From: Sphingobacterium sp. JB170
GTDB lineage: Bacteria; Bacteroidota; Bacteroidia; Sphingobacteriales; Sphingobacteriaceae
Reading direction: 5' to 3'
Length of the DNA: 64,000 nucleotides
Assembly: GCF_900163865.1 (NCBI RefSeq)
Contig: NZ_FUKU01000026.1
Coordinates: 310,001-374,000, forward strand
Shown: piece after piece, positions 22,895-41,609 of the stretch
How positions within the stretch are numbered: position 1 is the stretch's first letter
How the letters are laid out: every line of letters begins with the position of its first letter
The notes under the pieces: model-generated
The model's database searches: none
The model's input: the letters and a program-made list of their open reading frames with translations, nothing else
What the model was told of the DNA's origin: nothing
Position numbers and translations under genes: made by a program

Positions 22895-23116
22895 ATGTAT
22901 TGGACACTAGAATTGGCATCTCATTTAGAAGATGCTCCATGGCCTGCAACCAAAGATGAGTTAATCGATTATGCTATTCGTTCCGGCGCTCCTGTTGAAG
23001 TGATTGAAAACCTTCAAGCACTTGAAGATGATGGGGAGCCTTATGAAAACATCGAAGAGATCTGGCCAGACTATCCTACAAAGGATGACTTCTTTTTCAA
23101 CGAAGACGAATATTAA
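22895..23116 (+). CDS. DUF2795 small acidic protein
   Basis: A 73-residue acidic protein that matches DUF2795-type sequences: LELASHLEDAPWPATKDELIDYAIRSGAP, followed by VIENLQALEDDGEPYENIEEIWPDY. The motif WPATKDELIDYA is diagnostic. Its function is unknown. The gene is monocistronic, with a recognisable promoter and a terminator just after the stop, consistent with separate and perhaps abundant expression. Confidence 0.9.
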   Translation: MYWTLELASHLEDAPWPATKDELIDYAIRSGAPVEVIENLQALEDDGEPYENIEEIWPDYPTKDDFFFNEDEY

Positions 23117-23315: not shown

Positions 23316-23774
23316 ATGAACAAAATACTATTCGCGCTTGCACTGATAATTCTCCTCGTTTCGTCAAGTAATGCGCAGCAAGAACAAACAAGTAAAGATG
23401 ACGTTCTCATTGTGAAAGCGTTTCTCAATGATATCGCAGTCCCAGAAACTAGAGCCGATGTCATCCTAGCGAAACACGTTCAAATCGAAAAATCACTTAC
23501 GAACGAAGAATATGATTACTTGGAAGCGAGTATCGACGAAATACGCTTAAATCTACAAACCAAAAATATAGAAACGATCGACTACGTCCCATTTGATAAG
23601 CTCTCTCGTAGGGACAAACGTGATATCGATCCGGAAGGCAAACCGACGAGTAAAATGTATTTCCTTTACTACAACGACCGGCTAATGCTTGCCGTATATT
23701 TAGAAAACGGTAAGATCGGTTCGTTTACACTAGTATCTAAAGGGAACAACCTCGCTCATTTCGTAACCTATTAA
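23316..23774 (+). CDS. Secreted protein of unknown function
   Basis: A 152-residue protein with a clear signal peptide (MNKILFALALIILLVSSSNA, cleavage before QQEQ). The mature part is mixed alpha/beta with several charged segments (EEYDYLEASIDEIRLNLQ, RRDKRDIDPEGKP) and no motif I recognise. It is transcribed toward the trp leader, but nothing links it to tryptophan synthesis and the trp promoter lies after its stop. Confidence 0.75.
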   Translation: MNKILFALALIILLVSSSNAQQEQTSKDDVLIVKAFLNDIAVPETRADVILAKHVQIEKSLTNEEYDYLEASIDEIRLNLQTKNIETIDYVPFDKLSRRDKRDIDPEGKPTSKMYFLYYNDRLMLAVYLENGKIGSFTLVSKGNNLAHFVTY

Positions 23775-23788
23775 TTTTTTGATAAATA

Positions 23789-23820
23789 TTTGGAGCTAAG
23801 TAATAAATATTGTTAATTTG
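23789..23820 (+). promoter_or_regulatory. Promoter of the trp operon leader
   Basis: TTTG (23789-23792), a 20-base spacer and TTAATTTG (23813-23820, one mismatch to TAnnTTTG) give a plausible promoter about 18 bases before the leader peptide start. Confidence 0.55.
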
Positions 23821-23837
23821 TCACTAACAGAAAAATA

Positions 23838-23885
23838 ATGAATTTAATAATGAAAAATAAAGCGTGGTGGTGGCACAACAATTAA
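23838..23885 (+). CDS. trp leader peptide
   Basis: A 15-codon reading, MNLIMKNKAWWWHNN followed by TAA, contains three consecutive Trp codons; an internal in-frame ATG at 23850 would give an 11-residue form. It lies between a probable promoter and a terminator hairpin, 97 bases before trpD. A run of tandem Trp codons in a tiny reading just before trp genes is the hallmark of ribosome-mediated attenuation. It is far too short to act as a protein; translation itself would be the signal. Confidence 0.85.
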   Translation: MNLIMKNKAWWWHNN

Positions 23886-23962
23886 TGTTGTGGCAAAAAC
23901 CTATTGCTTGATTTTTTTCATCTCAAAGAATAGTGGCTTGCCTAAATTAGGCAAGCTTTTTT
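23874..23962 (+). promoter_or_regulatory. trp attenuator: pause hairpin, antiterminator and terminator
   Basis: Three mutually competing structures can be drawn. Hairpin 1:2 pairs CACAACA (23874-23880, just after the Trp codons) with TGTTGTG (23886-23892). The antiterminator pairs GGCAA (23892-23896) with TTGCC (23938-23942) and CTATT (23901-23905) with AATAG (23929-23933). The terminator 3:4 pairs GCTTGCCT (23936-23943) with AGGCAAGC (23949-23956), followed by six T. A ribosome stalled on Trp codons would cover the 1:2 arm, favour the antiterminator and allow read-through into trpD. The pairing is by inspection only. Confidence 0.8.
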
Positions 23963-23981
23963 ATTTTAGTCCATCAAAGTC

Positions 23982-24971
23982 ATGAAGAAGATATTAGCAC
24001 ATTTATTTGAATACAAAACATTTACTCAAGAGGAAGCATATAAGATATTAACAAATATTACGACAGGAAAATACGATTCCCATCAGATTGCAGCCTTTAT
24101 GTCAATCTACGGCATGCGTAGTATTCGGGTGGAAGAACTCAGCGGGTTCCGGCAGGCAATGTATGATCTGTGTAATAAAGTCGAATTACCGGGTTATGAT
24201 CTAATCGATTTATGCGGCACAGGAGGCGATGGCAAAAATACATTCAACATTTCGACACTCGCATCGTTCATAGTTGCTGGTGCAGGCTATCAGGTTGCAA
24301 AACATGGTAACGTCGGCGTTTCCTCTGGCTGTGGCTCGTCCAACGTAATGGAATATCTGGGATACAAATTCACCACTAATGTGAGTGAGCTACGTCGTCA
24401 GCTGGACGAAACAAATATTTGTTTCCTTCATGCTCCTTTGTTCCATCCTGCGATGAAAACTGTAGCACCTATACGCCGAGCACTTGGTGTAAAAACATTC
24501 TTTAATATGTTGGGACCATTAACAAATCCAGCAAGCCCCAAGTATCAGGCTGTCGGTGTATTTAGTTTAGAGCTTGCCAGACTATATAATTATTTATACC
24601 AAAGCACCGACAAACAATACAGTATAATTCACGCCTTAGACGGTTACGACGAAATTTCTTTAACCGGTGATTTCAAAATCATCGACAATCAAGGAGAAAA
24701 GTATTATAAAGTGGAAGATCTTGAGCTCAAACCCATTCAGGCAGCTTCGCTCGCCGGGGGCGATACCGTTGAAGAAGCGGCAAAGATATTCCACACAATA
24801 ATCCATGGGGAGGGAAACGATATTCAAAATAAAGTCGTGTCTACAAACGCGGCTTTTGCGATAAAAACGATACACCCCGAGAAGAGCTTTAGTGATTGTT
24901 ACGCTAAAGCACAAGATTCACTAATGGGGTTGAAAGCGCTATCAAGTTTCCAAAAATTAATAAAAAACTAA
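23982..24971 (+). CDS. trpD: Anthranilate phosphoribosyltransferase
   Basis: A 329-residue enzyme that transfers phosphoribose from PRPP to anthranilate, the second committed step of tryptophan synthesis. The glycine-rich PRPP site DLCGTGGDGKNTFNIST starts near residue 73, and KHGNVGVSSGCGSSNVME and FFNMLGPLTNPA are the other conserved blocks. The length is standard for the stand-alone, non-TrpG-fused form. It begins just after the attenuator terminator and leads the operon; trpF starts one base after its stop. Confidence 0.97.
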   Translation: MKKILAHLFEYKTFTQEEAYKILTNITTGKYDSHQIAAFMSIYGMRSIRVEELSGFRQAMYDLCNKVELPGYDLIDLCGTGGDGKNTFNISTLASFIVAGAGYQVAKHGNVGVSSGCGSSNVMEYLGYKFTTNVSELRRQLDETNICFLHAPLFHPAMKTVAPIRRALGVKTFFNMLGPLTNPASPKYQAVGVFSLELARLYNYLYQSTDKQYSIIHALDGYDEISLTGDFKIIDNQGEKYYKVEDLELKPIQAASLAGGDTVEEAAKIFHTIIHGEGNDIQNKVVSTNAAFAIKTIHPEKSFSDCYAKAQDSLMGLKALSSFQKLIKN

Positions 24972-24972
24972 C

Positions 24973-25593
24973 ATGGCTTTACAAATTAAAGTCTGTGGCA
25001 TGAAAGATGCCGATAACATTTGCGAGCTCGCAAAACTACCGATTGATTACATTGGTTTTATTTTCTATAACCAGTCACAGCGATGCGTTAAACAAATGCC
25101 AGAGGTAGAGATACCGACGTCAATCCGAAAGGTAGGCGTCTTTGTTAACCAGACGGTAACCGAGATTCAGAAAAAAATAAAGGAAGCAGGATTACAGCTC
25201 GTGCAGCTGCATGGTGCGGAAAACCCGGAAATTTGTGAACAAGTCCGCCATATGGGCGTTCAAGTTATTAAAGCATTTGGTATTCACGAAGATTTCGATT
25301 GGGAGAAATTAACACAATACTCCACGCACGTAGACTATTTTCTCTTCGATACCGAAAGTAAGCAGTATGGGGGAACTGGCCGGACATTTGACTGGGAAAT
25401 ATTAAAAGGTTATAATCTATCCACACCGTATTTTTTGAGCGGCGGATTGTCAACTGAAAATATTCGTTCGGCAAGCCTGATCACAGACAATAGGTTAATT
25501 GGCCTGGATCTAAATTCCAGATTTGAAATAACGCCCGGATTAAAAAATATTAAAGAACTACAAAAAGCACTGAATCGAATAGTTTATGAATAA
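24973..25593 (+). CDS. trpF: Phosphoribosylanthranilate isomerase
   Basis: A 206-residue TIM-barrel enzyme that performs the Amadori rearrangement of phosphoribosylanthranilate. The N-terminal KVCGMKD contains the catalytic Cys, VQLHGAE is conserved, and [19 protein letters not shown] contains the catalytic Asp. The phosphate-binding end is [11 protein letters not shown]. It is encoded separately from trpC (in E. coli the two are fused). It overlaps trpB by eight bases (ATGAATAA), so translation is coupled. Confidence 0.97.
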
Positions 25594-26770
25594 GTACCAA
25601 GTAAATAAAAAAGGCTATTACGGACCTTTTGGAGGAGCCTATATTCCCGAAATGCTCTATCCTAACGTGGAAGAGCTCCAAGGGAAATACCTTGAAATCA
25701 TACAGGAAGAAAGCTTCCAACAAGAATTCAATGAATTATTACACGATTATGTAGGACGCCCTTCTCCGTTATACCTAGCAAAACGCCTTTCACAGCGCTA
25801 CGGTGTAAATATCTATTTAAAACGCGAAGATCTTAACCATACAGGAGCACATAAAATAAACAATACGGTCGGACAAATCCTACTCGCTGAACGGTTAGGA
25901 AAGAAGCGAATCATCGCTGAAACGGGTGCCGGCCAACACGGTGTTGCTACCGCTACAGTCTGCGCGTTAAAAGGGCTTGAATGCGTTGTCTACATGGGCG
26001 AAGTAGATATCGCTCGTCAAGCACCAAATGTGGCACGCATGAAGATGATGGGCGCAAAAGTTGTCGCGGCACAATCTGGTAGCCGTACACTAAAGGATGC
26101 GACAAATGAAGCGCTACGAGATTGGATAAATAACCCAGTAGACACACACTATATTATAGGGTCCGTTGTAGGTCCGCACCCTTACCCAGATATGGTAGCG
26201 AAATTCCAGTCGATTATTTCCCAAGAAACAAAAAGACAACTTTTAGAAAAAACACAAAATGATTCCCCAGATTATGTCTTAGCCTGTGTGGGCGGGGGAT
26301 CGAATGCTGCGGGTATGTTTTACCATTTCCTCGATCAAGAGGACGTAAAACTGATAGCCGTTGAAGCTGCGGGCCATGGCGTAGAAAGTGGAGAATCTGC
26401 CGCGACCACGGCGCTGGGCAAAGAAGGAGTTCTCCACGGTAGTCGATCGCTTCTCATGCAGACTGCTGATGGACAAGTAATAGAACCGTATTCTATTTCT
26501 GCCGGACTAGACTATCCCGGTATCGGGCCGCAGCACGCTTGGTTGTTTAAAAGTGGTCGTGGAACCTATGTTAGCATAACCGATGATGAGGCAATGCAAG
26601 CCGGTTTACGATTGACGCAGCTCGAAGGGATTATACCGGCCATAGAAAGTTCGCATGCATTAGCCTACCTGGAAAAAATGAGTTTTAGAGGCGGAGAAAC
26701 GGTCGTCGTCTGCTTATCAGGTCGAGGTGACAAAGACCTTGACAATTACACAAAATATTTTGGACTTTAA
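25586..26770 (+). CDS. trpB: Tryptophan synthase beta subunit
   Basis: A 394-residue PLP enzyme that condenses indole with serine in the TrpAB complex. The N-terminus [15 protein letters not shown] is typical of TrpB1. The PLP lysine lies in HTGAHKINN near residue 90, [10 protein letters not shown] contains the conserved indole-site residues, and the phosphate loop is GGGSNAAG. Its start overlaps trpF and its stop lies four bases before trpA. Confidence 0.98.
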
Positions 26771-26774
26771 GAAA

Positions 26775-27554
26775 ATGCAAAAAGAAAACATAATCAACAC
26801 AGGCACCGATAAGCGTTTATTATCTATTTATTACACCGCAGGCTACCCCACATTAGATTCAACCTTAGATATCGCAGAACAACTAGAAAGATCTGGAGTT
26901 GATTTCCTAGAGATAGGCGTCCCTTACTCCGACCCTGTAGCCGATGGTCCGGTTATTCAACGAAGCTCTCAAACAGCACTGGAGAATGGAATGACTGTAC
27001 AAACTCTATTCGATCAATTACAAGAATTATCCACCCGTGTAACGATCCCTGTTTTTTTGATGGGGTACTTCAATCCTGTTCTTCAATTTGGAGTAGAAAA
27101 TTTTTGTAAATCATGCCGTGAAGTCGGCGTCACGGGGGTTATCATCCCGGACTTACCACTGTATGAGTACGAAGAACTGTATCAAGAAACGTTCATGAAA
27201 TACGGCATTAGCAATGTCTTTTTAGTTACACCACAAACATCGGATGAGCGAATTCGAAAAATAGACAACTTATCGAATAGCTTTATTTATCTTCTATCTT
27301 CGAATGCAACTACTGGTAAAAATCTTCACGTAAATAACCAAGCGGAATTATATTTCGAGCGTTTAAAATCCATGAAGTTAAAAAGTCCGCTAGTCATCGG
27401 TTTTGGTATATCCGATGCCAAGACTTTTCAAAAAGCAACTGATTACGCCACTGGCGCTATCATAGGCACTGCATTCGTAAACATACTTGGACAACAAAAT
27501 TATCAGGATAAGATCGAAGGTTTCATCAATAATATTATCTTCCCGGCTCCTTAG
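26775..27554 (+). CDS. trpA: Tryptophan synthase alpha subunit
   Basis: A 259-residue TIM-barrel enzyme that cleaves indole-3-glycerol phosphate and channels indole to TrpB. FLEIGVPYSDPVADGPVIQ holds the catalytic Glu and Asp, and the phosphate-binding end is IGFGISDA with GAIIGTAFVN. The start at 26775 is preferred because it lies four bases after the trpB stop and just before the first barrel strand. It closes the operon and a terminator follows. Confidence 0.97.
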   Translation: MQKENIINTGTDKRLLSIYYTAGYPTLDSTLDIAEQLERSGVDFLEIGVPYSDPVADGPVIQRSSQTALENGMTVQTLFDQLQELSTRVTIPVFLMGYFNPVLQFGVENFCKSCREVGVTGVIIPDLPLYEYEELYQETFMKYGISNVFLVTPQTSDERIRKIDNLSNSFIYLLSSNATTGKNLHVNNQAELYFERLKSMKLKSPLVIGFGISDAKTFQKATDYATGAIIGTAFVNILGQQNYQDKIEGFINNIIFPAP

Positions 27555-41084: not shown

Positions 41085-41609
41085 ATGAAAAAATTATTCA
41101 CACTTCCTGCGATCGCCGTTGCGCTGACATTCGCAGCATGTGGTGGTGGTTCAGAAAACAACACCACCGCGGAAACGACAGAACAGTCTACAACTACTTC
41201 AACCGAAACAGTACCAGGTATTGAAAATGTAGAATCTTCCAACACAATAACTGTCGAAGCAAATGACCAAATGAAATTTGACACGGAGCTACTGAAGGTT
41301 AAAGCCGGTGAGCCTGTTGAATTAACGCTTAAAAATGTTGGTACACTTCCAAAAGAGTCGATGGGCCATAACTTTATCATAGTTAAGCCAGGTGTAGATG
41401 TTGCTACTTTCGCAAGTGAAGCAGTTGCTGCTGTCGATGCAGACTATTTACCGAAAACATCTTTATCATCGGTTGCTGCCCATACAAAGTTATTGGGTCC
41501 TGGTGAAGAAGATAAAATAACCTTCACACTTGAAGCCGGTGTTTATACATTCCTTTGTAGTTTCCCCGGACATTATGGCGTGATGCAAGGTAAAATCGTT
41601 GCTGAATAA
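41085..41609 (+). CDS. Azurin-type blue copper lipoprotein
   Basis: A 174-residue exported lipoprotein: the signal segment MKKLFTLPAIAVALTFAACG ends in a lipobox Cys. A Thr/Ser/Glu-rich linker follows, then an azurin domain with the type-1 copper ligands: His in MGHNFII, and Cys, His and Met in CSFPGHYGVM (spacing Cys+5 His, +9 Met, as in azurin). It would be anchored at the membrane and carry electrons. It sits between the signalling operon and lpdA as a single unit with a terminator. Confidence 0.93.
   Translation: MKKLFTLPAIAVALTFAACGGGSENNTTAETTEQSTTTSTETVPGIENVESSNTITVEANDQMKFDTELLKVKAGEPVELTLKNVGTLPKESMGHNFIIVKPGVDVATFASEAVAAVDADYLPKTSLSSVAAHTKLLGPGEEDKITFTLEAGVYTFLCSFPGHYGVMQGKIVAE

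Follow-up and report, generated by a model that had tools for sequence, protein, structure and literature searches.

A predicted tryptophan leader-peptide attenuator before trpD in Sphingobacterium sp. JB170, and a second one before trpE

The trpD-trpF-trpB-trpA genes of Sphingobacterium sp. JB170 are preceded by a short structured region, which raises the question of how the expression of these genes is adjusted to the supply of tryptophan. The genes lie on the forward strand of the 64,000-nucleotide stretch of DNA that was analysed (the window, to which coordinates refer unless another locus is named). Three of them match their families well above the cut-offs: trpD (anthranilate phosphoribosyltransferase, 23982–24971; TIGR01245, 301.6 bits, cut-off 199.05), trpB (tryptophan synthase beta, 25586–26770; TIGR00263, 583.8 bits, cut-off 392.45) and trpA (tryptophan synthase alpha, 26775–27554, scanned from 26769 and with an uncertain start codon; TIGR00262, 225.6 bits, cut-off 102.35). 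The best match of trpF (phosphoribosylanthranilate isomerase, 24973–25593) is NF002298 with 173.3 bits, under the cut-off of 215, and all 13 NCBIfam families that it matched are TrpF or TrpF fusions. Neither TrpR (PF01371) nor TRAP (PF02081) has a match anywhere in the genome, and no Rfam family reaches its gathering score within the window, so that these searches do not point to T-box, TRAP or TrpR control. The expression of the four genes is very probably set by a leader-peptide attenuator, through the speed at which a ribosome passes over three Trp codons.

Judged from its letters and predicted folds, the forward strand between 23789 and 23962 contains all the parts of a leader-peptide transcription attenuator. 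The leader ORF (23838–23885, ATG at 23838) has 15 codons, which read MNLIMKNKAWWWHNN, and a stop codon at 23883, and it contains three consecutive Trp codons (23865–23873), the putative regulatory codons. These are followed by hairpin 1:2, the presumed anti-antiterminator, with a core at 23874–23892 (CACAACA at 23874–23880, loop ATTAA, TGTTGTG at 23886–23892) and an outer extension at 23850–23921 predicted in the minimum free energy fold. The 5′ side of the predicted antiterminator, segment 2 (GGCAA...CCUAUU..UUGA, 23892–23911), has its partner in segment 3 (23923–23942), which overlaps the 5′ arm of a predicted intrinsic terminator hairpin (GGCTTGCCTA/TAGGCAAGCT, 23935–23957, 10 pairs with a loop of 3). 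The six-T tract of this terminator (23957–23962) ends 19 nt before the trpD ATG at 23982. In this arrangement, a short ORF with Trp codons stands 5′ of biosynthetic genes, with an intrinsic terminator between the ORF and the first gene. An earlier note on this DNA had described the 15-codon ORF, the Trp triplet, the hairpin after it, the alternative pairing, the six-T terminator and the 19-base gap, and each was recovered exactly to the base.

The region from 23827 to 23965 folds with −39.3 kcal/mol (z −4.21), which none of 200 dinucleotide shuffles equalled, and it holds two terminator-like sites (mean 0.2), which are one hairpin read on either strand. There are two occurrences of the motif TGGTGGTGG in the 64 kb window, with 0.18 expected; the second, at 41141, lies close to where another reading frame begins and is, by eye, out of that frame. 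Genome-wide, the pattern ATG-N(6-36)-TGGTGGTGG has 30 matches, compared with 18 for a reversed control pattern, and six of the 30, at five places, are in frame and stop-free. The trpD and trpE leaders account for two of these places, and the remaining three lie within longer open frames of at least 177 codons. A 17-codon in-frame ORF with three Trp codons on contig C30 was considered as a third leader and dropped, because a longer open frame on that strand encloses it.

The near-consensus promoter claimed by the earlier note holds in one form only. Sigma-70 hexamers gave chance-level matches, and we adopted instead the −33/−7 motif of Bacteroidota, which we take to fit TTTG (23789–23792) and TTAATTTG (23813–23820), separated by a spacer of 20 on the forward strand. 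The position of these elements predicts a transcription start near 23825–23830. The promoter test covered the 27 closest of 76 trpD leaders. The pattern NTTG-N20-NNNNTTTG, picked after inspection of the sequences, ends 5–35 nt upstream of the leader ATG in 25 of these 27, against 15 of 5400 mononucleotide shuffles. A looser promoter score of at least 8 separates less well, since it is reached by 25/27 of the same leaders and by about 23% of shuffles.

Directly 5′ of the leader promoter is a 152-aa ORF (23316–23774) with a signal-peptide-like start and no NCBIfam match. Because a scan of 23700–24060 revealed no terminator between this ORF and the leader, read-through from the one into the other is possible. 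Further upstream, an acidic ORF of 73 codons (22895–23116, coordinates read by eye), which resembles those of the DUF2795 kind, is followed by a short hairpin with T's.

The effect of a ribosome on the fold was computed with a mask that began 15 nt upstream of the first base of the A-site codon and ended 12 nt downstream of it, the downstream extent being in agreement with a passage in PMC4833913. In RNA reaching up to the terminator 5′ arm and free of ribosomes, hairpin 1:2 has a computed probability of 0.98. A mask over the Trp codons abolishes this hairpin and the antiterminator appears (−11.7 kcal/mol), in which GGCAA pairs with UUGCC, and CCUAUU with AAUAG and a G. A mask at the stop codon covers the start of the antiterminator, which then does not form. 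The terminator (23933–23962) has −14.8 kcal/mol, and it is favoured at every ribosome position in the full leader transcript (P 0.95–0.96). The comparison of folds with and without masked Trp codons, which the earlier note had suggested, is borne out in part: in RNA that ends with the terminator 5′ arm, the antiterminator is computed to exclude the terminator and to be freed only by a ribosome on the Trp codons, but at equilibrium the full transcript keeps the terminator. As the terminator wins in every state of the full transcript, an equilibrium reading predicts no switch, and the switch must be kinetic, with the antiterminator forming before the terminator 3′ arm is made. In E. coli attenuation, timing is accepted as what decides the choice of fold.

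We propose that, when charged tRNA-Trp is ample, the ribosome translating the leader would reach the stop codon at 23883 and cover segment 2 from its start to about 23895; the nascent terminator (23935–23962) would then form and the transcript would end before trpD. With charged tRNA-Trp scarce, the ribosome would stall at 23865–23873 and cover the 5′ arm of hairpin 1:2, so that the freed GGCAA...CCUAUU could pair with the terminator 5′ arm and the polymerase would continue into trpD. If the leader were not translated, hairpin 1:2 would form and the terminator would win.

To compare relatives, contigs were searched with a TrpD profile and the best 80 loci of a longer list were used. A short ORF with Trp codons lies within 700 nt upstream of trpD in 75 of these best 80 loci, with three consecutive Trp codons in 73 and two in 2, which answers the question of conservation posed by the earlier note. 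Among the five loci lacking such a leader, two are on contigs that stop short, with 183 and 204 nt of sequence before trpD. The other three (L099, L104 and L114, from Algoriphagus or Cyclobacteriaceae) have a leader with WWWH before an ORF with a TrpE start motif, and between this ORF and trpD an ORF with a TrpG-like start, to which L114 adds one ORF more. The same script found a terminator hairpin with T's between the ORF and trpD in 76/76 leaders. For alignment A1, 19 of the 76 were picked by hand, from Sphingobacterium, Parapedobacter and one Sphingobacteriaceae, close duplicates and the leader L037, which has two Trp codons, being omitted; the three Trp codons are invariant in all 19.

The masking computation was extended to the 76 leaders. 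On average, the terminator 5′ arm pairs with RNA upstream of it with a probability of 0.42 without a ribosome, 0.78 with a ribosome on the Trp codons and 0.37 with one at the stop, and the corresponding means of spacer-shuffled leaders are 0.51, 0.51–0.52 and 0.47. The best Trp position exceeds the stop position by 0.1 in 73/76 leaders, compared with 155/380 spacer shuffles, and the Trp-stalled state exceeds the ribosome-free state by the same margin in 66/76, the margin not being reached in 10/76. The E. coli trpL leader, used as a control, gave 0.00 when ribosome-free, 0.09, 0.35 and 0.32 at the three codons from the first Trp codon, and 0.00 at the stop.

These values bear on the alternative that survives best, although we consider it improbable, namely that the hairpin is a fixed, unregulated terminator, or a stop for upstream read-through, and that the Trp-rich ORF is a gene for a small protein with its own role. 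The stability of the terminator in the complete transcript, whatever the position of the ribosome, is what such a fixed element would show, and in Sinorhizobium a trp leader peptide is described as having a role in trans (PMC7298713). However, the difference between Trp-stalled and stop-stalled folds in 73/76 leaders would not be expected of a fixed terminator, nor would the presence of such a leader before each of the genome's two trp transcription units. Against a small-protein gene, the peptide outside the Trp triplet varies between genera, whereas ORF, hairpin and terminator stay in register. Still less probable is that a stalled ribosome acts on translation or on the access of Rho, and not on an intrinsic terminator. 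The T tract is only 19 nt from trpD, and structure near the start could matter; yet over the 76 leaders the distance from the terminator to trpD ranges from 6 to 397 nt and is not conserved, while the hairpin with its T's is always there. Direct sensing of Trp or tRNA by RNA or protein (a riboswitch, a T-box or a TRAP-like system) without a translating ribosome, which the strong structure of the region might suggest, is very unlikely in view of the family searches described above and of Trp codons that are in frame after an ATG and never vary in A1. Leader-peptide attenuation before trpD-trpF-trpB-trpA, as claimed by the earlier note, is thus the best explanation of the sequence, in which the named parts are all present and conserved in relatives.

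Covariation of the stems, which the earlier note had also proposed to examine, gave a mixed result: hairpin 1:2 has compensatory changes, but the terminator of the trpD leaders has one-sided changes only and the signal in the antiterminator is weak. In A1, three of the seven pairs of hairpin 1:2 have changes on both sides, and 94.7% of cells are paired. Taken together, hairpin 1:2 and the terminator have seven double-change cells, a number reached by none of 500 shuffles; three pairs with such changes are reached by 24/500. The antiterminator is paired in 86.7% of cells over the 19 leaders and its core GGCAA/UUGCC in 97.9%, with little covariation; its covariation score is reached by 24/500 shuffles, and a partner slid by three columns scores higher (0.150 vs 0.135).

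Segments 2 and 3 were also swapped between leaders, and a leader's own pairing is better than the cross-clade mean in only 57/76. With types named by their terminator arm, segment 2 of the GGUUGCU type gives −8.6 kcal/mol on GGCUUGCC arms and the reverse combination −9.1 kcal/mol, compared with −11.3 and −12.6 kcal/mol within type. The GGUUGCC and GGCUUGCC types fit each other (−13.5 and −11.0 kcal/mol), and segment 2 of the GGUUGCU type gives −12.6 kcal/mol on GGUUGCC-type arms. Swapping therefore answers the question of covariation only in part, because two of the types share GGCAA/UUGCC and the segment 2 of one type prefers the segment 3 of another.

A model built from the 19 leaders of A1 (R1) matches 92/121 genomes of the family and 13/13 of the genus. 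Second matches of R1 occur in six genomes, and five of them (L146–L149 and L152) are trpE leaders. The sixth, L150, was rejected as a leader, as it has no ORF with two adjacent Trp codons and no TrpE or TrpD motif; matches of R1 near or under 40 bits are therefore not all real, and a few of the lowest-scoring matches among the 92 genomes may be of this kind.

The tryptophan pathway of JB170 is split, with the TrpE gene and trpC on another contig and a second chorismate-binding gene on a third. At the trpE locus (L115), trpE, trpG and trpC run in the same direction, and upstream of them are an ORF reading MTITNLHTSWWWLEANSVGN, again with three consecutive Trp codons, and a terminator, the T tract of which is interrupted (CCTTTCGTTTATA). 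The genome thus holds a second Trp leader, and a common signal likely tunes the two halves of the split pathway. The predicted antiterminator of the trpE leader is different from that of the trpD leader: CGUCGGG, inside the Ser-Val-Gly codons, pairs with CCCGACG. The effect of masking on this leader is small (0.71 without a ribosome, 0.77 on the Trp codons, 0.50 at the stop).

A survey of trpE covered 30 of the 80 genomes, chosen for spread, of which one (G415) has no TrpE match at E 1e-120. The 29 relatives with a match all have a Trp-rich ORF and a terminator as found by script, with three consecutive Trp codons in 21, two in 4 and the form WxW in 4; the WxW leaders (WLW, WQW) are those of Pedobacter L137, L138, L142 and L144. 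The Trp position exceeds the stop position by more than 0.1 in 21/30 trpE leaders, a weaker result than in the trpD set. Alignment A2 comprises 18 of the 30 trpE leaders, with L120, L125 and L131 omitted as near to kept ones and L136–L144 as belonging to other genera. In A2, the terminator has four pairs with double changes. At one pair of the antiterminator, four sequences have AU in place of GC, and 20/500 shuffles score as high. Between the trpE leader ORF and its terminator, on the minus strand of L115 (5113–5132), there is a box, ATAATCAACCAAAACCAT, which is almost identical in most of the 18 leaders of A2, beyond what pairing in the fold explains.

A model built from these 18 leaders (R2) matches 112/121 family genomes; as it also matches trpD leaders, this figure counts Trp leaders of either type. 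The best matches of R1 and R2 are different loci in 13/13 genomes of the genus, and the cross-matching of the two models makes a common descent of the trpD and trpE leaders possible.

The closest described RNA is the Bacteroid-trp family of Rfam, RF01692. In a permissive scan of 241 bases, the leader before trpD aligned with the whole model (1–131 of 131) with 48.7 bits and E 3.7e-5, in front of trp genes (trpD-F-B-A). The gathering score is 49 bits, and we describe the leader, 0.3 below it, as a close relative just under the line and not as a listed member. The leader before trpE reaches 31.3 bits (E 0.076). Both RF01692 and the trpD leader lie before trp genes in Bacteroidota, and in both the 5′ side of a long hairpin contains a short ORF that includes Trp codons; they differ in that 27 of 30 RF01692 loci from other genomes precede an ORF with a TrpE motif, whereas the leader described here precedes trpD of a split pathway. 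The other three loci (L002, L008 and L031) precede an ORF with a TrpB-like start, which from this start sequence we take to be TrpB, so that the position of such leaders seems to depend on which trp gene comes first in a unit.

RF01692 matches 46/392 genomes of the phylum sample, 41 of them over the cut-off. Among the 12 Sphingobacteriaceae of this sample, three match at E 0.001 (48.7, 48.0 and 46.5 bits) and none passes, while R1 matches 92/121 family genomes, which reveals a blind spot of RF01692 in this family. In a separate sample of 35 genomes from the phylum, 12 have a TrpE match at 1e-90, JB170 included, and a Trp-rich ORF lies within about 250 nt upstream of it in 11 of the 12, including 3 of 4 genomes from other classes. 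In the remaining genome (G013, L164), the ORF criterion alone gave no acceptable Trp-rich ORF upstream of the TrpE match.

The idea of attenuation is not new to the phylum. RF01692 was listed by Weinberg et al. in 2010 (PMC2864571, Table 1). PMC6414381 likens its structure to that of the E. coli trp leader and describes it as conserved 5′ of the F. psychrophilum trp operon. For the same species, passages of a 2021 transcriptome study (PMC9723704) give strong indications of leader-peptide attenuation before operons for amino-acid biosynthesis and note that flavobacteria lack Shine-Dalgarno sites, and PMC7366714 describes long 5′ UTRs in Bacteroides thetaiotaomicron with short ORFs reminiscent of leader peptides. 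The clues in Flavobacterium psychrophilum come from mapped 5′ transcribed regions in the same phylum, although those passages name amino-acid operons and not trp (PMC9723704). The novelty for Bacteroidota hinted at by the earlier note is accordingly not supported, but its narrower statement, that it was aware of no well-characterised example, may stand: the literature searched yielded no mutational test of a leader attenuator in Bacteroidota. Among the matches listed, mostly from non-subscription literature, we recognised no case of two trp attenuators in one Bacteroidota genome. A 2010 study by Lopatovskaya et al., cited in PMC4833913, may treat Bacteroidetes.

The trpD leader resembles E. 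coli trpL in its short leader with Trp codons, its antiterminator, its terminator with a T tract and the qualitative outcome of masking. No sequence relation between the two emerged, and the genomes differ in that E. coli has a Trp repressor of PF01371, which has no match in JB170. E. coli has one attenuator for one trp operon.

The trpD leader is, by its anatomy in the sequence, a conserved and well-formed Trp leader attenuator of a kind already known. The new points are modest: a pair of attenuators on a split pathway, a trpE-type leader under the Rfam cut-off, and a Bacteroidota promoter at a near-fixed distance. The findings lend sequence-level support to a well-established mechanism in a phylum that is known for lacking Shine-Dalgarno sites. 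We lean towards the view that, in Sphingobacteriaceae, the split of the trp genes went together with a doubling of the attenuator, so that each half-operon has its own Trp leader, with a distinct antiterminator (GGCAA/UUGCC for trpD and CGUCGGG/CCCGACG for trpE), and that the trpE type is an RNA family left unresolved by Rfam. Two leader peptides would then, without TrpR or TRAP, keep seven enzymes in step with the charging of tRNA-Trp. With two Trp leaders and no match to either regulator, JB170 offers a clean genome for asking how split operons stay coordinated.
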